Shown: one piece after another, positions 1-21,129 of the stretch
Layout: every line of letters starts with the position of its first letter
Numbering within the stretch: position 1 is the stretch's first letter
Assembly (NCBI GenBank): GCA_017609985.1
Contig: JAFCCW010000005.1
Location: 1-62,776, forward strand
Length of the DNA stretch: 62,776 nucleotides
From: Candidatus Iainarchaeum sp.
GTDB taxonomy: Archaea > Iainarchaeota > Iainarchaeia > Iainarchaeales > JAFCCW01
Direction of reading: 5' to 3'
Notes under the pieces: model-generated
The model's input: only the letters and a program-made list of their open reading frames with translations
The model's database searches: none
Told to the model about the DNA's origin: nothing
Program-made: the position numbers and the translations under genes

Positions 1-965
1 GTTACTGTGTCGCCAGCATCAACAGAAGCTGGAGAAATTTCAAGTGAAACATCAAAGACATCAGATACTGCCGAACAATTTGGTGCAGAAGCACAATCTA
101 AATCAGCACAATCAGTTAATCCATCTAAGTCATCGTCGAAGCCATTGTCACAAATTTCGGAAGGAGGGCTGACAGAACAATTGGTTCCTGCTTCACATCT
201 TGGATCATAATAACATTGAGCATCACAAGGAGGAACATCACATTGGAACGGACAAGAACAATCAGGGTCTATTGGACATGCAAGATTTGTTTCACAATCT
301 GTATTGCATTCGCCGTCTGAATCACAATCTAAATAACAGCAATCAGGATCGTCAGCGCATAAGGGGTCAGGTCTGCAATCAGCATTGCATGAATCATCAG
401 CAAAACATTCTCTTTCACAACCCTGCACTTGCCCCTCAGTGCTACAGCAAATACTATAAGAAAGTTCTGAATCACAATCGTCAACATGAGCATTGGATTG
501 AGAAGAAGCTTTTGCAAGACACTCCTGTCCAGAAGCACATTCTCCAGCAACAAAAGCACAACTTATTGTGCCCTCTGAAACTTTAATGCATCTTGGAGTA
601 TTAAAAACTCCGCTAATTGAAGAAGCAATGTGAGTATTGGTCAACTGGTCTTCAGGAACAGCAAAAACAAAGGCTTCGTCTGAGAGAGTATCAGATTTAG
701 TGCACTGGCTTCCAATGAAAAGAGTTTTGTCAGACTTGCAACAAACCTCATTAGGATATTCATCATGCGGATTCCAAGCAGCAACACTAATATGCTCTCC
801 GCCAATACCCACATTACTGTAGCTGAAAACAAGCTTTTCTCCAGCAACACATTCAGTAGTGTTTTCTGAAGTGGCATAACTTAGTTTGCAGTCAAGAGAA
901 GCAAAAGCAAATGGCACAATAAGGAATAAAAACAATATAACAAAAACATTCTTTTTCAGATTCAT
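1..965 (-). CDS. Secreted Cys-rich surface protein, 3' end outside window
   Basis: The reading frame opens with ATG at 965 and stays open to the window edge, so the C-terminus is missing. The first ~22 residues (MNLKKNVFVILFLFLIVPFA) are a clear signal peptide. After a ~120-residue globular part the chain becomes very rich in Cys-Asp motifs (DCDSDGECNTDC, DPDCSCPFQC), then has an ICDNGFDDDLDGLTDCADLDC segment. This segment is of the calcium- or disulfide-rich type often seen in secreted proteins of Woesearchaeota-like archaea and some bacteria. It is followed by a VSLEISPASVDAGDTV stretch that looks like the start of a CARDB/Ig-like beta domain. The likely location is the cell surface or outside the cell. 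I recognise no enzyme motif. Confidence 0.75.
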   Translation of the reverse strand, partial: MNLKKNVFVILFLFLIVPFAFASLDCKLSYATSENTTECVAGEKLVFSYSNVGIGGEHISVAAWNPHDEYPNEVCCKSDKTLFIGSQCTKSDTLSDEAFVFAVPEDQLTNTHIASSISGVFNTPRCIKVSEGTISCAFVAGECASGQECLAKASSQSNAHVDDCDSELSYSICCSTEGQVQGCERECFADDSCNADCRPDPLCADDPDCCYLDCDSDGECNTDCETNLACPIDPDCSCPFQCDVPPCDAQCYYDPRCEAGTNCSVSPPSEICDNGFDDDLDGLTDCADLDCASAPNCSAVSDVFDVSLEISPASVDAGDTV

Positions 966-1039
966 CTTATCACCATTGTTTGAATGATAGAAACTGGAAA
1001 CCAACAGGGTTATTTTCCCTGCTGAAAACCAATCAACCA

Positions 1040-2389
1040 TCACCTGCTGTCTTTCATGAATACATCAAACTGTATCCAACCATCTCCAGAGCTTGTGTCA
1101 TTACCCCATGCTTCAATACTATATCTTTGCCCACCACTGTACTCACCATAGGAAACTTCAGACATCTTGATTTTGAACCAGTTTGGTATTCCAGGAAAGA
1201 CATCTGGCTGGTTAGCTTCGCCATCGGAAACAAGGGAAGAACAAGGTATTGACCCAGACCCATACTTCCAGCAACACTCCCAAGTAGTGCTATTTTTCTT
1301 AACAAAATCAATCTTTCCTATTGGCCAGTCCTGATTTTCCCTGTTGTTTATCTTTATATAATTCGGCGCGTAATCAGGCAAACCTGTGGAAAAGTTTGAA
1401 CCATAGTTATGTTCAAAGTACATTTTTCCGCCTGCAACAAGGTTGTATGCTGCTGCTTTGTAGGCAGATCTGACTGAGGCTCCGGATGCATATCTATAGT
1501 AAATCTCGTAGTCCCAGTAGCCATAGTTTGGGCTGTGATCCATCTGATGGATTATAATCCGGTCAGGAGCATCATCCAAGAGATAAGAATAGATTGCCTG
1601 CTGCTGGTGAAGATACTTCATAGTTTCTGTGCCGTTAGGAACTTCATATTGCTTGTCGTCAGGCATAGAAAACTCAAGCCAGAACGCATCATTGTTTGAA
1701 ACCCTTATCTTACTACATGATGCTGGAGAATAATCATTTGGAATGCAGGAAACAGTATGACAAGTGATTGTTTCACCTACATTGTCACTAAAAGAAGCGT
1801 TTGGCACCTGCCCCAGACAAAAGTCATCAAGCCTGTTTCTAACTTTCACCATGACTTCAACACTTTTGCCACTTTCAGGCCATAGTTCCTGAATTGAAAC
1901 CTGATTATTAGGATAAGTTATATTGTACTGATCCGAACCCGCGTTTAGTTTCGACAGATATGTTTGAACACCCTGTTTCGGACTCAGCACTATTTCTGCT
2001 TCCTCAGTCATGCTTGTTCCAGCAACCAGTAAATTCCAGCCACTGCCACCAACAGCGACTTCAGGAGACGCCCAGTTAGAAATACAATCTTCTTGTGGTT
2101 CGCCTGAACTGTTCTCGCTTAACAGACAGATCTGACCAGTGTTAAGCTTTGTAAGGGTTGCTTCAGGAGTCATGCTAACAGTTACGTCTCCGGAACCGTC
2201 ATCTTCCGTGCTTGAAATAGCAATGTTTGAACCTGCTGTCACAGAACTGACTCCAACAACAGTTTCACCACCACCTGTTCCGCCTCCACTGCCAGTGCTA
2301 TCAGGACAGTTGGTTCCGTCGGAAAGGCAGACTTCCTTGCCATGAACCATAACACTGTCACCATCCAATTGAATAGTATCAGCAACCAT
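1040..2389 (-). CDS. Surface or fibre-like protein, C-terminal part of a frameshifted gene
   Basis: This 449-codon frame continues the protein that starts at 2907. The two frames overlap, and the sense of the protein changes frame near 2400. The first residues here (MVADTIQLDGDSVMV) are almost certainly internal, and no ribosome binding site was chosen. A Gly/Ser/Thr linker (about residues 31-40) is followed by a VTAGSNIAISSTEDDG segment like those of tail-fibre or trimeric surface proteins. Next comes a Cys-containing globular region of about 280 residues without a recognisable catalytic motif. It is probably an extracellular structural or adhesive protein. Function is inferred only from composition. 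Confidence 0.6.
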   Translation of the reverse strand: MVADTIQLDGDSVMVHGKEVCLSDGTNCPDSTGSGGGTGGGETVVGVSSVTAGSNIAISSTEDDGSGDVTVSMTPEATLTKLNTGQICLLSENSSGEPQEDCISNWASPEVAVGGSGWNLLVAGTSMTEEAEIVLSPKQGVQTYLSKLNAGSDQYNITYPNNQVSIQELWPESGKSVEVMVKVRNRLDDFCLGQVPNASFSDNVGETITCHTVSCIPNDYSPASCSKIRVSNNDAFWLEFSMPDDKQYEVPNGTETMKYLHQQQAIYSYLLDDAPDRIIIHQMDHSPNYGYWDYEIYYRYASGASVRSAYKAAAYNLVAGGKMYFEHNYGSNFSTGLPDYAPNYIKINNRENQDWPIGKIDFVKKNSTTWECCWKYGSGSIPCSSLVSDGEANQPDVFPGIPNWFKIKMSEVSYGEYSGGQRYSIEAWGNDTSSGDGWIQFDVFMKDSR

Positions 2390-2907
2390 CCTGATTGATG
2401 TCTGCCTATGTTCATGTAAGAATCGCCGTTCCAGACAAAGGAACTCAGGAATGCTATGGGAAAGTCAGAGGAATCCATCTTCTCGCTCCATTCAGCAATC
2501 CAGTTGTTAAAGTTGTAATTTGGGTCATCGCCAAAATCCTCAGAGCGTATGGCAACCATAGAGCCAGTCTTCGTCAAGCCGTCCACTGTCAGGTCGCCGT
2601 CCTGCATTTTTATCATCTTTGAGGTTCCGGGCGCAACGCTTGTGTCACCAACAGTCAAATAGTCTTTCGCAGTTATTCCCCCGTCAAAGTCAGCACTTTG
2701 GCCTTTCAGGACGCTGTTGAGAGTAGTTATTCCCTGAACAGTTAAACCTGTGTTGACAAGCACGTTCTCAAAACCGCCTTCAGTAAAAACATCAATCACA
2801 TCAGTGTAAAGCGTTTGATGGCCGACTTTTTCAGCTGCAAAGCCCTGCCCTGCCAAAAGGCAGAATACTGCGAAAAATAAAGAAAATTTCAAAAACCTTG
2901 AATTCAT
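2239..2907 (-). CDS. Surface or fibre-like protein, N-terminal part of a frameshifted gene
   Basis: ATG at 2907 is preceded by a good ribosome binding site (GGAGGG at about 2914-2919). A signal peptide covers residues 1-24 (ending GQGFAA). Repeated short beta-type segments follow (GLTVQGITTLNSVLKG, DYLTVGDTS, GDLTVDGLTKTG), as in fibre or pilus-associated proteins. The frame makes sense up to SYMNIGR, then becomes unlike protein (RHQSGWLLILFNWMVTV). One extra base at about 2401-2403 would join it as NIGR-TSIRMVADTIQ to the frame of 1040-2389. So the intact protein would be about 610 residues. The break may be an assembly error or a real mutation. Confidence 0.65.
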   Translation of the reverse strand: MNSRFLKFSLFFAVFCLLAGQGFAAEKVGHQTLYTDVIDVFTEGGFENVLVNTGLTVQGITTLNSVLKGQSADFDGGITAKDYLTVGDTSVAPGTSKMIKMQDGDLTVDGLTKTGSMVAIRSEDFGDDPNYNFNNWIAEWSEKMDSSDFPIAFLSSFVWNGDSYMNIGRHQSGWLLILFNWMVTVLWFMARKSAFPTEPTVLIALAVEAEQVVVKLLLESVL

Positions 2908-3011
2908 TTTGGACCCTCCGAAGCATATGCTTATGATTAATTGATAAATATATGATTTTGTTATTTTTATTTGTTTCGGTTAAAAATTGAGCAAATTAAT
3001 AAAGAAGATAT

Positions 3012-3049
3012 GTTTAAATATATTTAACTTTCATAATTTATTGAAAGTT
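3012..3049 (+). promoter_or_regulatory. TATA box and 8-8-8 inverted-repeat operator before the GbsR/MarR-like gene
   Basis: A TATA-like element (GTTTAAATATAT, from 3012) is followed by a perfect inverted repeat: AACTTTCA at 3026-3033 and TGAAAGTT at 3042-3049 with an 8-bp spacer. This puts a dyad over the expected transcription start of the regulator gene at 3076. The natural inference is that the encoded regulator binds here and controls its own ABC-transporter operon. The dyad is seen directly; the binding is inferred. Confidence 0.6.
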
Positions 3050-3075
3050 CAATATTTTGTGAAGGTGTTTTTGTT

Positions 3076-3582
3076 TTGGAAACAGCAAGAGAAGAATTTA
3101 TTGAAATGATTTCTGAAATAAACAGAATAAAGGGTTTAGACGCACTTTCATCAAAACTCATCGGCGTGCTATTTATCGAGCCAGAGGAGATTTCTTTGGA
3201 GAGGTTGACTGAGTTAACAGGATACAGTCTTTCAGCAATAAGCACTAGCATGAAATTCATTGAAAAAACAGGTTTTGTTAAGAGAATCAAAAAGCCAAAG
3301 TCAAGAAAGGTTTACTATTTCATGGAAAAAGGATTGATTGACAGTTTCCTGGATGTCATGGAAGGCAGGTTTATGACAGTAATGGAGACTGCGAGAGAGA
3401 AAACTCCTGAAATCCTTGAAAAATACAGAAAAGTGAAGAAAAAATCAGAAAAAGCAAAAAAAGAGCAGGAAATTGTTGAAATATATAATAAAGAAATAAA
3501 TATAGTTGAGTCCATATTTAAACAGCTTGTTGAAGATTTGAAAACTGAAAAGAAAAAACTAGTTGAAGGGAGAGCAAAATGA
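3076..3582 (+). CDS. GbsR/MarR-like winged-helix regulator
   Basis: The protein has 168 residues. A winged-helix fold is suggested by residues ~38-75 (ISLERLTELTGYSLSAISTSMKFIEKTGFVKRI), with a wing (KPKSRKVYYF). A long charged coiled-coil tail follows (residues ~105-165), probably for dimerisation. This layout resembles GbsR-type members of the MarR superfamily. The start is TTG at 3076 with GGTG about 10 bases upstream; no better ATG exists in frame. Its last codons overlap the ABC ATPase gene by 4 bases (ATGA), so it leads a five-gene operon to 7926. An inverted repeat at its promoter suggests autoregulation. The ligand is unknown. Confidence 0.75.
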   Translation: METAREEFIEMISEINRIKGLDALSSKLIGVLFIEPEEISLERLTELTGYSLSAISTSMKFIEKTGFVKRIKKPKSRKVYYFMEKGLIDSFLDVMEGRFMTVMETAREKTPEILEKYRKVKKKSEKAKKEQEIVEIYNKEINIVESIFKQLVEDLKTEKKKLVEGRAK

Positions 3583-10422: not shown

Positions 10423-10473
10423 GCAATATACTACTAATAAAGTAATATATAATAGTTTGAACTAAACTAATTG

Positions 10474-11853
10474 ATGAAAAAATATGGTTCTCTGAAAAGA
10501 TGCTGGGCAGTATTTCTCCTGCTAGCAATAGCCCTAGTGTTAAGCGGTTGCGCAGTGGAAGAAGTAAAAGAACAACAAGGATTAAGTGCTGAAGCAAACC
10601 AGGTTAGCGGACCGCAGGAAACAACTGAGCAAAATGGAACCGCGGACGAAAACGGAACAGATTCAGAAGGGCAAATCACTGCAGAAGAAACAACAACTTT
10701 TGAAGAACAAATAGCAAACTGCAAAGCTAAAGAAAACATTATTGAGAGAGACAGTTGCATCAAGAGTGTTTCGATTTCAGAGCAAAGAGAAAACGGTTGC
10801 CTTGAATTAAATGTCCTTGGAAAAGAAGAATGCTTAAGCGAAATTGCGATTGGAAAGAGCGACGAAGACATCTGCACACTTATTGATCCTGAAAAAGAAA
10901 AATGGAACTGTCTTGAAGAGATTGCTGTTTCAAAAAAAGAATATGAAATTTGTGAAGAAATTGGAGCAGATGAAAATATCATGAGAAAAGATGAATGCCT
11001 GATTGCGGTTGCTGTTTCTGCAGGAGACTACGACATCTGCAAGCAGGTTTCAGTAAATGTCAGAGAAAACAGTTTTATGCGAGACCAGTGTTATGAAAAT
11101 TTTGAAATTGTGGACTCAAATTTAGATTTCTGTGAAAGATACATCAGCCAGACAAAAGAAGCAGACTGCATCAGAAATATTTCTTCAGACAGCAATAGTT
11201 CATCAGAACAGGCCTGTTTCGGATTGAGTGATGAGGAGTTGGATGAATGCATTTACCGCACAGCAACTGAAAACAGCATCTATCTAGACTGTTATTTGCT
11301 GAAAGATGATACAAATGTTCAAAATTGCATTGACTATATTGCAGAAAATTCCCCAGACATTAATGTGTGCAGTGTGGCAAGCAGGGGACTTATTCAACGA
11401 GAATGTTACAAAGAAGTTGGAATCGAAGATAACAATGCAGAGATTTGCGAAATTATCGCAACATCTGATGAAAGAGACGACTGTTTTTACAATATTGCAA
11501 TTGACTTGAACGACTCTTCTTTGTGCAAGAAAATATTTGAAACAAAATTTTTGAAAAAAGATGAATGCTTTGAAACAATAGCTCTTGAAAAAAAAGATGT
11601 GACTGTTTGCGAAGAACTATATTTTGAAGAAAACTATTTGAACTGCTATGTGGAAATTGCAAAGCTTGTGGAAGAAAGCAATATCTGCAGTCTGATGCAG
11701 TTAGGCCATTTTAGACAGTACAGCATTTATACTCCTGAAAGTCTTTGCTACAAAGAATACGCAATCGAAACAAATAATACAGATGTTTGTATTCAGATAA
11801 ACAACACGGAATTGAAGCAAGAATGCAATGACTTGAATGCAGTGTTTCACTGA
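10474..11853 (+). CDS. Lipoprotein with tandem paired-cysteine repeats
   Basis: A signal peptide with a lipobox (VLSGC) is followed by an acidic Ser/Thr/Gln-rich linker to about residue 85. Then come about ten degenerate repeats of ~30 residues, each with two or three Cys (for example DKCxxxIAIxxxDxSxCxxI; visible as ERDDCFYNIAIDLNDSSLCK and KKDECFETIALEKKDVTVCE). The spacing suggests a helical, disulfide-stapled solenoid outside the cell. ATG at 10474 is preferred over the TTG one codon earlier. A related protein lies at 16857-17957. I know of no assigned function. Its 3' end overlaps a convergent gene by 7 bases. Confidence 0.75.
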   Translation: MKKYGSLKRCWAVFLLLAIALVLSGCAVEEVKEQQGLSAEANQVSGPQETTEQNGTADENGTDSEGQITAEETTTFEEQIANCKAKENIIERDSCIKSVSISEQRENGCLELNVLGKEECLSEIAIGKSDEDICTLIDPEKEKWNCLEEIAVSKKEYEICEEIGADENIMRKDECLIAVAVSAGDYDICKQVSVNVRENSFMRDQCYENFEIVDSNLDFCERYISQTKEADCIRNISSDSNSSSEQACFGLSDEELDECIYRTATENSIYLDCYLLKDDTNVQNCIDYIAENSPDINVCSVASRGLIQRECYKEVGIEDNNAEICEIIATSDERDDCFYNIAIDLNDSSLCKKIFETKFLKKDECFETIALEKKDVTVCEELYFEENYLNCYVEIAKLVEESNICSLMQLGHFRQYSIYTPESLCYKEYAIETNNTDVCIQINNTELKQECNDLNAVFH

Positions 11854-15484: not shown

Positions 15485-15697
15485 TGTCGGAGAAAGCGTA
15501 GGCAACGACACTAATTTTTGGAAAAATAAGGGAAATGGAAACTTGAAGTGAAATTATACGAACTAATTGCCAAAAGAAGGTAAAGCACATTAAGGTAATT
15601 AGGTGGCAAAATTGACACAAAAGGAGTCTGTCCGAGAATTGGGACAGCGTCCGAAAAGTCGGACAAGGCAAGTAGGCTGACAATCTTATTGCTTTTT

Positions 15698-15766
15698 GTT
15701 AGCCTAAAAGCCAAAAACAAGCAAAATTTTAGGCTAACTATTTAAAATAACTTTGTTAGCCTAAAT
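15698..15766 (+). promoter_or_regulatory. Operator repeats framing the TATA box of the first Fic gene
   Basis: GTTAGCCTAAAA (15698-15709), its exact inverse TTTTAGGCTAAC (15727-15738) and a third copy, GTTAGCCTAAAT (15755-15766), are spaced 28-29 bp apart. The TATA box (TTTAAAATA, about 15741-15749) sits between copies two and three. ATG follows 6 bases after the last copy. The pattern is an inverted repeat around the core promoter, as for an autorepressed gene. Binding by the Fic protein or a partner is inferred. Confidence 0.75.
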
Positions 15767-15771
15767 ATTAT

Positions 15772-16710
15772 ATGCAATTACGTACAAAGAAAGTGCACGG
15801 GAAAAAGTACTATTACCTTGACCTTAGTTACAGGATTTTATCCAAATTAAAAACCTTCAGCAAATACATTGGAGCAAAAAAGCCTTCGAAAAGAGAACTC
15901 AACAGGATTGAAGAAGAATTCAAAGTAGAGACCATTATAAAACTTGCAGGAAAAGAATACACAAACGATCTAATTTCCCAGGATGATTTGATAAAAGCAC
16001 TTCTTTTCAAGGAAGCGTTTAACAAAAAATTTGCATCCCTTTCAAAAGTGCAAAAGAGAAAATATGAGGTTGACAGCACAATTCTTTTTACTCTAACAAC
16101 GCTCACAACAGAGGACGTTGACGTAAGCTTGGATGACGTAGTAAATGCGTTTGAAAAAGACCGACAGTTGAGCATGCGAGAGCAAATAAGTAAAAACATG
16201 CTTAAGGCAGTTGAATCAATAAAAGAAAAACACAAATTGAATAAGCAATACTTGCTGGAATTGCATAAAACGATAATGTCAAGCTTTGAGGATAAAACAC
16301 CAGGCCAGACAAGAAGCAGGCAGGTTTATCTTCATAGGCAAGACCCAAAAAACCCCTTAGGAATTGAAATCGGCTACAGGCCACCACAGCATGGCAAAAT
16401 AGATACGCTACTTGATGATTTCGTTGAATGGTACAATTCAACAAAACTAAACCCCGTAGAAAAGGCGGCGATTGCCCATTACAAAATATACAAAATCCAC
16501 CCTTTTCTTGACGGCAACAAAAGAATTTGCAGGCTGATATTCAACAAAACCCTGTTGGATGAAGGATTTCCCCTGCTTAACATTTCACTGAAGAAAGAGC
16601 CGTACTTCCAAACCTTGATTGATTCTGTTGAAAAAGACACGCCAAAGAAGCTTGCGGAATTTACGCTCAAAGAATTCCTAAGGCAAACAAAAGCATTCCT
16701 GAAACAATAA
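15772..16710 (+). CDS. Fic-domain protein, Doc-like GNKR variant
   Basis: The 312-residue protein has an N-terminal ~50-residue module (KKVHGKKYYYLDLSYRILSK...YIGAKKPSKRE) also present in the second Fic protein. A helical Fic core carries the active-site motif HPFLDGNKRICR at about residue 243. Canonical AMP-transferring Fic proteins have HPFxDGNGRxxR. The GNKR form seen here is the one found in Doc kinases, so the chemistry may be phosphorylation, or the site may be altered. The usual inhibitory motif (S/T)xxxE(G/N) is replaced by DSTILFTLTT. No antitoxin gene is visible next to it. Its TATA box is framed by inverted repeats. Confidence 0.85.
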   Translation: MQLRTKKVHGKKYYYLDLSYRILSKLKTFSKYIGAKKPSKRELNRIEEEFKVETIIKLAGKEYTNDLISQDDLIKALLFKEAFNKKFASLSKVQKRKYEVDSTILFTLTTLTTEDVDVSLDDVVNAFEKDRQLSMREQISKNMLKAVESIKEKHKLNKQYLLELHKTIMSSFEDKTPGQTRSRQVYLHRQDPKNPLGIEIGYRPPQHGKIDTLLDDFVEWYNSTKLNPVEKAAIAHYKIYKIHPFLDGNKRICRLIFNKTLLDEGFPLLNISLKKEPYFQTLIDSVEKDTPKKLAEFTLKEFLRQTKAFLKQ

Positions 16711-16760: not shown

Positions 16761-16856
16761 AACTGGGTTTGTCGGATGATGATGACAAAGCAAAAATTCG
16801 TGGAACTCTAAACAAATGATTGGATTGTGGCTGAAGGAAAGAAAAAGGTAAAAATC

Positions 16857-17957
16857 ATGAAAAATGAATTAAACAAGTTTTTTATTGTATTAACCATTTT
16901 TGTTATAATTTCTTTTTGTTTATTGAATGGTTGTTTGCAAGAAGCTTCAAAAGAAAAACCATTAATCGAATCTGAAAACAGTTTGAATAAAGAGGTTCCA
17001 GCCAAAGATTTAACCAATGAAGCAAACCAGCAAAAAGAACCAGAAGAAATTAAAGAAGAAGACATTGATTGCACAGATTTCGATGGCAACAAAGAAGAAT
17101 GCTTATTGCACCAAGGCTGTAAATGGAGTTCGGATAGAAACGAATGCGATTCAACCAGCCTAATGAAAGACGAGGATGAACAATTTGAAGAAGATGAAGA
17201 AGGGTTCATGCAAGAGTTAGAAGAGATTATTGTTCCCCAAAACCCATCCAATGAAATATGCAAAAAACTACCCTTGTTAAAGTCCTTAAGTTATGGCAAC
17301 AGGTATTACTGCCTGGCCATAGTAAACCACAATGCCGAATTTTGCAGGGGAATGGACGAAGAAAACGAGGAGAATATTTGTTTAGCAATAGTTAAGAAAG
17401 ACTCATCACACTGCAAAAAAATAAAGGATGTTTCTGCAAAACATGTTTGCTATTACCAACTTGCAGCAATAAGCAAAAACATTAATTTTTGTGACGACAT
17501 TGATTATGATGAAAATGAAAGATTACAGTGCTACTTCAATTTTGTAAGCAATTTATACTGGTTTGACAAATCTGAAGAAATAAAAACAGAATACTGCAAT
17601 AAGTTTCCTGCTGGCGAGTCTGACAAAAGCACTTGTTTAGCCTTCAAAGAAAGAAATGCTTCACTCTGCAAAAACAATGTTAATTGTTTAACTTTTTTTG
17701 AACAAGAAGCACCATTCTGTGAAAACAAAAGAATTATATTAAAAGATTGTGTAAGAGATAGAGCTATGACCAGCAAAGATGTTTCAATTTGTGAAAAACT
17801 CTCTGGAAAAAAAAGAGATGATTGCATTGGTGATTTTTGCACTCATATAGAGTTAGATGTTGCTATTTGTGATAAGATTACAAGCATTAAAGAAAAACAA
17901 TCTCGTTATATAGAACTTGCCATAAACCTTGCTAACAATGTGAGGGAGAGTAACTAA
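16857..17957 (+). CDS. Second lipoprotein with tandem paired-cysteine repeats
   Basis: ATG at 16857 gives a proper signal peptide and lipobox (ISFCLLNGC); an in-frame GTG at 16827 would add ten residues in front of the signal and is less likely. After an acidic linker the protein has an EEDIDCTDFDGNKEECLLHQGCKW segment. About eight Cys-paired repeats follow (YCLAIVNHNAEFCRGM, ICLAIVKKDSSHCKKI, VCYYQLAAISKNINFCDDI) of the same type as the protein at 10474. It is probably an extracellular, disulfide-stapled helical array. It is one base from the propeller gene that follows, so the two are likely co-expressed. Confidence 0.75.
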   Translation: MKNELNKFFIVLTIFVIISFCLLNGCLQEASKEKPLIESENSLNKEVPAKDLTNEANQQKEPEEIKEEDIDCTDFDGNKEECLLHQGCKWSSDRNECDSTSLMKDEDEQFEEDEEGFMQELEEIIVPQNPSNEICKKLPLLKSLSYGNRYYCLAIVNHNAEFCRGMDEENEENICLAIVKKDSSHCKKIKDVSAKHVCYYQLAAISKNINFCDDIDYDENERLQCYFNFVSNLYWFDKSEEIKTEYCNKFPAGESDKSTCLAFKERNASLCKNNVNCLTFFEQEAPFCENKRIILKDCVRDRAMTSKDVSICEKLSGKKRDDCIGDFCTHIELDVAICDKITSIKEKQSRYIELAINLANNVRESN

Positions 17958-19876: not shown

Positions 19877-20022
19877 ATGTCAAGCAGAGAGAAGGAGTAA
19901 CAACTATTCAACTTGAAAAGAAAACAAGAGACAGGTTGATAGATTTGGAAAAGAATGGCGAAAGCTATGATAAAATAATTAATAACCTGGTTGATTTTTG
20001 GAAGAAGAGAAAAAAGAGATAG
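19877..20022 (+). CDS. Ribbon-helix-helix-like mini-protein before the second Fic gene, start region broken
   Basis: From 19897 a 41-codon frame reads VTTIQLEKKTRDRLIDLEKN then GESYDKIINNLVDFWKKRKKR. This strongly resembles the short VapB/RHH-type archaeal antitoxin-like family (TTIQLxxxTRxRLxxLxxxGETYDxIIxxLL). No start codon exists in that frame. ATG at 19877 (MSSREKE) runs into TAA at 19898, and one extra base before GTA would fuse the two as MSSREKE-VTTIQLEKK. So either a base is missing here, or the gene is dead. Its stop lies against the first operator repeat of the Fic gene, so it may encode the DNA-binding partner of that gene. Confidence 0.55.
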
Positions 20023-20111
20023 TTATCACTGGTTCTATGCACAATGTTGTTTTTTGTGATAACAACGAGTTATCACTGAGTTAAGTTTAAATACTGTTTT
20101 CAGTGATAACT
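20021..20111 (+). promoter_or_regulatory. Operator repeats framing the TATA box of the second Fic gene
   Basis: AGTTATCACTG occurs at 20021-20031 and 20068-20078, and its exact inverse CAGTGATAACT at 20101-20111. A core GTGATAAC is at 20056-20063. The TATA box (TTTAAATA, 20086-20093) lies between the last two. The sequences differ from those of the first Fic gene, but the arrangement is the same. Autorepression by the Fic protein or the mini-gene product upstream is inferred. Confidence 0.8.
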
Positions 20112-20115
20112 AAGT

Positions 20116-21129
20116 ATGAGTCGTATTATCTCTAGAACTGTAAAAGGCAAGAAATACTACTATTTAGAAGAGTCTTTCAAGCAGCGCCAAAAATGGGTTA
20201 AGGAAAGCGTTTACTTGGGGTCCGAAAAACCAGACAACACTCGGTTGTTGCCTGCTTTTGAAGAGTTAAAGAAAAAATGCAAGAAAAAAGAGCATGTTGT
20301 TCTTGTTCCGCCGCTAACAGAATTTATCTCAAACCAGAGAGCAGCCAAGCTGCAAAAAGCTGCAGAAAACAAGAAAGAATTTCTAAAAAAACTTACCAAA
20401 TCCCAAAGAGAGGAGTTTGTAAGAAGAGAGCGGATAACATTCATAACAGACTCCAATGCAATAGAGGGGAGCTCGCTCACATACTCTGAAACATCAAGAA
20501 TCTTAGAACAAGAAAAACAAATCAAGAAATATGAAAAAAGAAACATTATAATCACTGGCCTTGACAGAGAAGAACAAGAAGCATTAAACCTCAAAGCATG
20601 CCTTGACAGATACGATAAATACATGAAAATAAACCAAAAAATATCGCAAAAAATGATTCTGCAGCTGCATTACATTCTACTGGAAAAAATATCCGGCTAC
20701 GAACAATACCAAGGAATTTACCGGCCAGTTAAGGTTTACATTAGGGGGTCAACCCACGAGTTTCCACTACCACAAGAAGTACCTGGACTAATGAAAAAAC
20801 TAATTCAATGGCTGGCAGATAACGAGAAACTCATGCACCCTGTAGAGTTGGCTGCAAAATTCCACACAAAATTCACAGGAATCCACCCGTTCGCTGATGG
20901 AAATGGAAGAATGGCAAGGCTCCTAATGAATTACATCCTGCAACAAAAAGAATTCCCATTCACAAACATCCCACTAAAAAGAAGGCAAGCATACATGAGA
21001 ACACAGGCAGCAGGAAACAAAGAAAACTACAAACCATTCACCCAATTCCTCTCAGAAGAGCTAATAAAACAGCATTTAGGCGAACACAAGAAACCAAGCG
21101 AGCGCAGGTGGCCACAAACCACAAAATAG
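20116..21129 (+). CDS. Fic-domain AMP-transferase with class II inhibitory motif
   Basis: The 337-residue protein has the same N-terminal module as the first Fic protein (KGKKYYYLEESFKQRQKWVKESVYLGSEKP). An inhibitory motif SNAIEG (~residues 113-118, type II, N-terminal) matches (S/T)xxxE(G/N). The canonical active site HPFADGNGRMARLLMNY is at about residue 257. It should transfer AMP from ATP to a Ser, Thr or Tyr of an unknown target, with self-inhibition by Glu117. A flap region (YIRGSTHEFPLPQEVP) for target binding is visible. It is preceded by an RHH-like mini-gene and an operator array. Confidence 0.92.
   Translation: MSRIISRTVKGKKYYYLEESFKQRQKWVKESVYLGSEKPDNTRLLPAFEELKKKCKKKEHVVLVPPLTEFISNQRAAKLQKAAENKKEFLKKLTKSQREEFVRRERITFITDSNAIEGSSLTYSETSRILEQEKQIKKYEKRNIIITGLDREEQEALNLKACLDRYDKYMKINQKISQKMILQLHYILLEKISGYEQYQGIYRPVKVYIRGSTHEFPLPQEVPGLMKKLIQWLADNEKLMHPVELAAKFHTKFTGIHPFADGNGRMARLLMNYILQQKEFPFTNIPLKRRQAYMRTQAAGNKENYKPFTQFLSEELIKQHLGEHKKPSERRWPQTTK

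Follow-up and report, generated by a model that had tools for sequence, protein, structure and literature searches.

The most probable description of the 312-residue Fic protein analyzed here, to which we give a probability of roughly 60%, is a self-contained, FICD-like class II enzyme with an altered active site that most likely represses its own gene. Judged from the sequences compared, what is new is a conserved archaeal clade that joins the lysine of Doc to the inhibitory glutamate of class II Fic proteins, with promoter operators that point to self-regulation. Positions are those of the window, the whole stretch of 62,776 nucleotides that was analyzed, and the features are listed in Table 1.

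Gene, genomic setting, and predicted fold

A profile search places the protein in the Fic family (PF02661, E = 1e-20, 74.7 bits against a cut-off of 24), and its FIC motif reads HPFLDGNKRICR, in agreement with the first-pass annotation of a Fic gene with a Doc-like GNKR site. The same start codon is used in a 79% identical relative (L006) and in others. The dN/dS ratio against the 79% identical relative is 0.05–0.09, and by this measure the gene is under strong purifying selection. The 1.16 Mb genome, in 37 contigs, carries four genes of the Fic fold. Two are the GNKR Fic and the canonical Fic-2 of the same window; the others encode a further class II Fic, on a separate contig (TNSIEG, HPFQDGNGRTAR), and a short Doc-like protein with the site HTFMDGNKRGAS. 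Those close relatives that bear names are Candidatus Diapherotrites archaea. Across 15 relative loci and the window, we found neither a conserved neighbor gene of the GNKR fic gene nor a Phd-like antitoxin gene beside it. Elsewhere in the window, positions 10471–11853 encode a Cys-rich repeat protein with a lipoprotein-like start that clusters with a sequence in another locus (L044, genome G036), and the stretch at 16827–17957 resembles it by eye.

Table 1. Features of the GNKR fic locus and of the comparison gene Fic-2
Feature	Positions	Strand	Remarks
Operator O2, left half-site GTAGGCTGAC	15672–15681		Degenerate inverse copy, 26 bp before O2 right half-site
Operator O2, right half-site GTTAGCCTAA	15698–15707	+ copy	Exact match
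Operator O1, left half-site TTAGGCTAAC	15729–15738	− copy	Exact match, inverse of GTTAGCCTAA
TATA-box-like TATTTAAAATAA	15739–15750	+	Between O1 half-sites; relatives conserve TTTAAATA; putative promoter element
Operator O1, right half-site GTTAGCCTAA	15755–15764	+ copy	Exact match; ends 7 bp before ATG
GNKR Fic gene	15772–16710	+	312 aa, GNKRxxR variant, ATG start
N-terminal module	15772–15951	+	Residues 1–60, beta-beta-beta-alpha; proposed DNA-binding part
STILFT	16075–16092	+	Residues 102–107; inhibitory position supposed by the first-pass annotation; placed by alignment
Inhibitory-helix motif TLTTED	16099–16116	+	Residues 110–115, with E114; aligned with SNAIEG/TNAIEG
Flap hairpin	16330–16377	+	Residues 187–202; model strands 187–191 and 194–202
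FIC motif HPFLDGNKRICR	16498–16533	+	Residues 243–254; Lys250 at the second-glycine position
Second Fic-2 operator copy	20021–20064		Half-sites 20021–20031 and 20054–20064; 33-bp spacing
Fic-2 proximal operator AGTTATCACTG...CAGTGATAACT	20068–20111		Half-sites 20068–20078 and 20101–20111; flanks Fic-2 TATA box
Fic-2, comparison gene	20116–21129	+	Canonical class II Fic, SNAIEG, HPFADGNGRMAR

The AlphaFold2 model of the GNKR Fic has a mean pLDDT of 95.3. A Foldseek search gave human FICD as the best solved structure (E = 5.6e-10), with a Z score of 27–28 (about 27.6) and 2.1 Å over 229 residues on superposition. The active-site pocket is predicted to be well folded (pLDDT 95), not collapsed, the latter being an outcome that had been raised beforehand. 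Human FICD (HYPE), a bifunctional AMPylase/deAMPylase, thus has the closest solved fold and shares the N-terminal inhibitory helix with its Glu and the His, Asp, Asn, and Arg of the motif. However, FICD has the second Gly and TPR repeats, whereas the GNKR Fic has a Lys and a small N-terminal module, is archaeal, and carries operators at its own promoter. The class II core is also that of Shewanella SoFic (PADLOC SoFic model, E = 6e-29), but the protein falls far below the NCBIfam SoFic cut-off, at 35.7 against 550 bits. As had been proposed, the N-terminal module is common to the GNKR Fic and Fic-2.

Inhibitory glutamate and active-site lysine

It is virtually certain that the GNKR Fic retains the inhibitory Glu motif. 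The first-pass annotation had aligned STILFT with the SNAIEG of Fic-2 and concluded that no inhibitory motif was left. Alignments that include the relatives rule this out: the SNAIEG/TNAIEG columns fall on TLTTED, eight residues downstream of STILFT, with Glu114 in the position of the inhibitory glutamate. The aligned frames read F-TYN-TNAIEG in canonical Fics, F-VYT-TLRTEG in GNKR relatives at ~40% identity, and F-TLT-TLTTED in the GNKR Fic itself, and its close relatives read TLTTEN, TLTTEG, or TLTTEE. The motif lies N-terminal to the Fic core, as in the class II pattern (S/T)xxxE(G/N), and keeps its Thr and Glu; the last position, G or N in the consensus, is D here, a departure from the strict pattern, and close relatives have D, E, G, or N there. 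The E114 column is invariant in a 41-sequence alignment of Fics from the window and from public contigs, canonical ones included. Furthermore, the inhibitory Glu is kept in all 53 GNKR Fics that cover the position and in 80 of 81 GNGR Fics of the sampled genomes, and the predicted helix 92–113 ends at E114, as expected of an inhibitory helix. Because this motif is present, the idea of a constitutively active enzyme is unsupported. A C-terminal or trans-acting inhibitory motif had also been considered; an inhibitory motif does exist, but it is N-terminal and in cis.

The canonical pattern HxFx(D/E)GNGRxxR does not describe the GNKR Fic, as Lys takes the place of the second Gly in all 56 members of its clade. 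His243, Asp247, Asn249, Lys250, and Arg254 are each kept in 56/56 and Arg251 in 55/56. In the motif alignment, E114, H243, D247, K250, and R254 correspond to E234, H363, D367, G370, and R374 of FICD. The Glu, His, and acidic motif residue of Glu-dependent deAMPylases are therefore all present (E114, H243, and D247, invariant where covered). Additionally, the GNKR clade shows little or no variation at positions 109, 111, 113, 259, 272, and 287, where canonical Fics differ or vary. Since 56 homologues have GNKR and dN/dS is 0.05–0.09, the site is neither a chance variant nor a sequencing error. The retention of Arg254 says little, because a clade without the His and the Glu has likewise preserved the last Arg. 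None of the five groups of Fic/Doc motifs described by Khater and Mohanty equals GNKR with the last Arg kept (PMC4454073). BepC was considered as a GNKR example and rejected, as it reads KGNGR, with the acidic residue replaced by Lys. Judged by sequence, the pairing of GNKRxxR with a cis inhibitory Glu is that of neither a canonical Fic nor Doc.

Homologues were sought in 87 genomes of the same phylum, 301 of a second, and 156 of a third; the 56 distinct GNKRxxR homologues come from three archaeal phyla. The genome sizes of the second and third phyla point to DPANN archaea. A pattern search found GNKRxxR in 19 of 389 archaeal genomes: the source genome, others of its order, and three from the other two phyla. 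The GNKR sequences form a single clade (SH-aLRT 99), within which members from the source order are intermixed with members of another phylum, so that the genes have likely passed between phyla.

Several relatives depart from these patterns. The only GNKRxxR Fic in IMG/VR (L211:4097–4873, HPFADGNKRHSR with SGQLEG) has Lys and Glu together in a distant sequence. In L024, L025, L053, and L058, the catalytic His is replaced by Gln, the site reads GNSR (QPFVDGNSRVSR), and the inhibitory Glu is lost (SSKLAG or SSKLSG); this clade is likely a natural pseudo-enzyme. L069 is an otherwise canonical HPFQDGNGRIGR Fic with SNSIAG, in which Glu has become Ala, and is a candidate naturally de-inhibited AMPylase. 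L379, L380, L382–L388, and L391 are Fics of ~400–430 aa with a winged-helix-like N-terminal start, HPFIDGNSRTSR-type sites, and a SLSLEG-type motif; their second glycine is Ser, and the Glu is kept. Possible decay within the GNKR clade is seen in L231, with GNKQ for GNKR, and in L223, with one in-frame stop counted.

One locus (L040; G044 contig 41, bases 143–3129) holds a GNKR Fic, a Doc-like protein (HPFEDGNKRTAF), and a canonical class II Fic in tandem. A GNKR fic gene lies near another gene of the Fic fold on the source contig and in G044, G070, G451, and G511, which is suggestive only. An obligate writer/eraser pairing with a canonical Fic is unsupported, because, at the threshold applied, 2 of 42 GNKR-bearing draft genomes lack any further gene of the Fic fold.

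Predicted chemistry

With a Doc-like Lys inside a complete class II Fic frame, the enzyme probably has altered chemistry, in line with the earlier suggestion of a differently acting enzyme. The default activity of FICD is deAMPylation, which depends on Glu234 (PMC6826200); this residue orients the water for attack, Mg is bound by Asp367, and His363 probably acts as the acid (PMC8373988). EfFIC likewise depends on its Glu, its His, and the acidic residue of the motif for deAMPylation (PMC6408439). It has been argued that the canonical triphosphate pose is blocked when a side chain takes the place of the second glycine, and deAMPylation has been proposed for Beps with Glu at this position (PMC8401265). 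By analogy with these enzymes, our tentative first choice is a deAMPylase-like, Glu-dependent hydrolase. Glu114 would act in cis to prevent canonical AMP transfer, and Lys250 would add a further block to the normal ATP triphosphate pose. The remaining chemistry would then be carried by the His, the Asp-bound metal, and Glu114, with hydrolysis of a nucleotidylated target as the most likely reaction and Doc-like phosphotransfer as the main alternative. The Bep8-type Beps of Bartonella resemble the GNKR Fic in having a side chain at the second glycine. However, theirs is Glu, whereas the GNKR Fic has Lys, a complete catalytic motif, and its own inhibitory Glu.

The alternative is a Doc-like kinase in a class II frame, in which Lys250 would invert ATP, an EF-Tu/EF1A-like target would be phosphorylated, and Glu114 would serve as a built-in antitoxin. 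In Doc, the Lys at the second-glycine position forces an inverted ATP and phosphotransfer (PMC4177925, PMC8401265). Lys250 is invariant in the clade, Glu and Lys also occur together in the viral-contig Fic L211, and the invariant residues would suit a kinase with cis inhibition and a hydrolase about equally. Nonetheless, the whole sequence and fold are FICD-like, and the protein scores 18.2 bits with the DOC_P1 model (TIGR01550), below the cut-off of 38.65. The Doc toxin of Phd-Doc is a small single domain without the last motif Arg (PMC4454073); the GNKR Fic, in contrast, has 312 residues, keeps this Arg (56/56), carries a cis inhibitory Glu, and has no Phd-like neighbor. For these reasons the kinase is possible, but we hold to it less readily than to the hydrolase. 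We know of no cis inhibitory Glu in Doc.

Canonical AMP transfer appears the least likely of the three chemistries, because the Glu, Asp, and His are kept while the glycine that admits the phosphates has become Lys. An enzyme of the canonical FICD kind would have to tolerate Lys250, for example turned outward or touching phosphate. Every other motif residue is kept and the predicted fold is that of FICD, but bulky residues at the second glycine have been judged incompatible with the ATP triphosphate (PMC8401265), GNKRxxR is rare (one instance against at least 120 of GNGRxxR in IMG/VR), and the clade contains no reversion of the Lys. We regard such an enzyme as improbable. A catalytically dead binder or regulator, with DNA binding as its main role, has a precedent in the related clade that lost both His and Glu (QPFVDGNSR with SSKLAG). 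It is very unlikely here, as the GNKR clade shows no substitution of the His, Asp, Asn, Glu, or last Arg and purifying selection is strong.

Paired operators and probable self-regulation

Upstream of the gene are two inverted pairs, O1 and O2, with half-site starts 26 bp apart in each, and O1 flanks the TATA-like box. Both inverted pairs and their 26-bp spacing recur in most close relatives, and a few show the proximal pair together with part of the distal one. In one GNKR branch, no repeats flank the TATA box, though by eye copies seem to lie further upstream. The half-site sequence varies between loci (GTTAGCCTAA, ATCAGCCTAA, ATCTGCCTAA, GTCTACCTAA, GTATACCTAA) and largely matches within a locus. 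When 17 promoters of close relatives were aligned, 97.9% of half-site positions paired, against 25–43% when slid by 1–3 columns. Their covariation score was 0.388 (0.175 when shuffled), and cells with changes on both sides numbered 26 (8.5 when shuffled). Of 109 promoters of module-bearing fic genes, 69 had repeats scoring at least 9; the same was true of 5 of 110 control ORFs and of none of 11 fic genes with a wHTH-like domain at the start. The O1 pair occurs in only one place in the whole genome. The operators of Fic-2 differ from those of the GNKR Fic in sequence and have a 33-bp spacing, and its proximal pair is likewise confined to a single genomic location. An RNA hairpin is a less likely cause of the inverted repeats, as the left arm precedes the TATA box and, given archaeal promoter layout, would be outside the expected transcript.

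The gene thus has a paired, gene-specific operator at its own promoter. Three observations make it likely that the GNKR Fic itself represses its own gene: half-sites differ between loci and largely match within them, the genome has no second copy of the O1 pair, and no neighbor is conserved. That each Fic binds its own putative operator is the simplest reading. In this model, a dimer of the GNKR Fic would attach to the operators, probably by its N-terminal module, and would block the TATA box, so that little protein is made. The earlier remark that the enzyme might be held in check by something else may hold in this sense, because the operators suggest transcriptional control.

The module is predicted to consist of strands 2–8, 11–22, and 25–34 and helix 40–59, with a pLDDT of 88 alone and ~97 within the full model. 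It has no clear match among PDB sequences, Pfam, or known folds. Its layout is like that of integrase arm-binding domains, but the fold matches to these domains are weak (Z ~4; 3jtz, Z 4.1) and tied with unrelated folds. In a partial correlation test, similarity between operators followed the Fic core no less than the N-terminal module.

With no recognized DNA-binding fold in the module, a separate regulator could be the one to bind the operators. We consider this unlikely: the half-sites differ between fic subfamilies yet agree inside a given locus, the source genome has the pair in one place, no other gene is conserved beside these fic genes, and Fic-2 has an operator of its own with another sequence and spacing. 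A known Fic to compare with is Coxiella CbFic2, a bifunctional class II Fic with a DNA-binding part whose activity is affected by DNA (PMC10628234). In CbFic2 this part is a C-terminal HTH, which was assayed with random DNA, whereas in the GNKR Fic it would be the N-terminal beta-beta-beta-alpha module, with the specific operators of the promoter as predicted binding sites.

The broadest reading is that tiny-genome archaea hold a large family of solitary Fics, each a sequence-specific self-repressor with a private operator and a DNA-binding fold undescribed for Fics, and that the GNKR clade carries out a Glu-dependent reaction distinct from both canonical AMPylation and phosphorylation by Doc. 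Taken as a whole, this is doubtful. The second-glycine position is thought to decide between AMP and phosphate transfer by the Fic fold, and the GNKR clade, with Lys and the class II inhibitory Glu together, is a natural experiment in which these two determinants are uncoupled. Private operators would be a one-protein alternative to toxin-antitoxin control, and they offer a handle for finding such fic genes in uncultured archaea.
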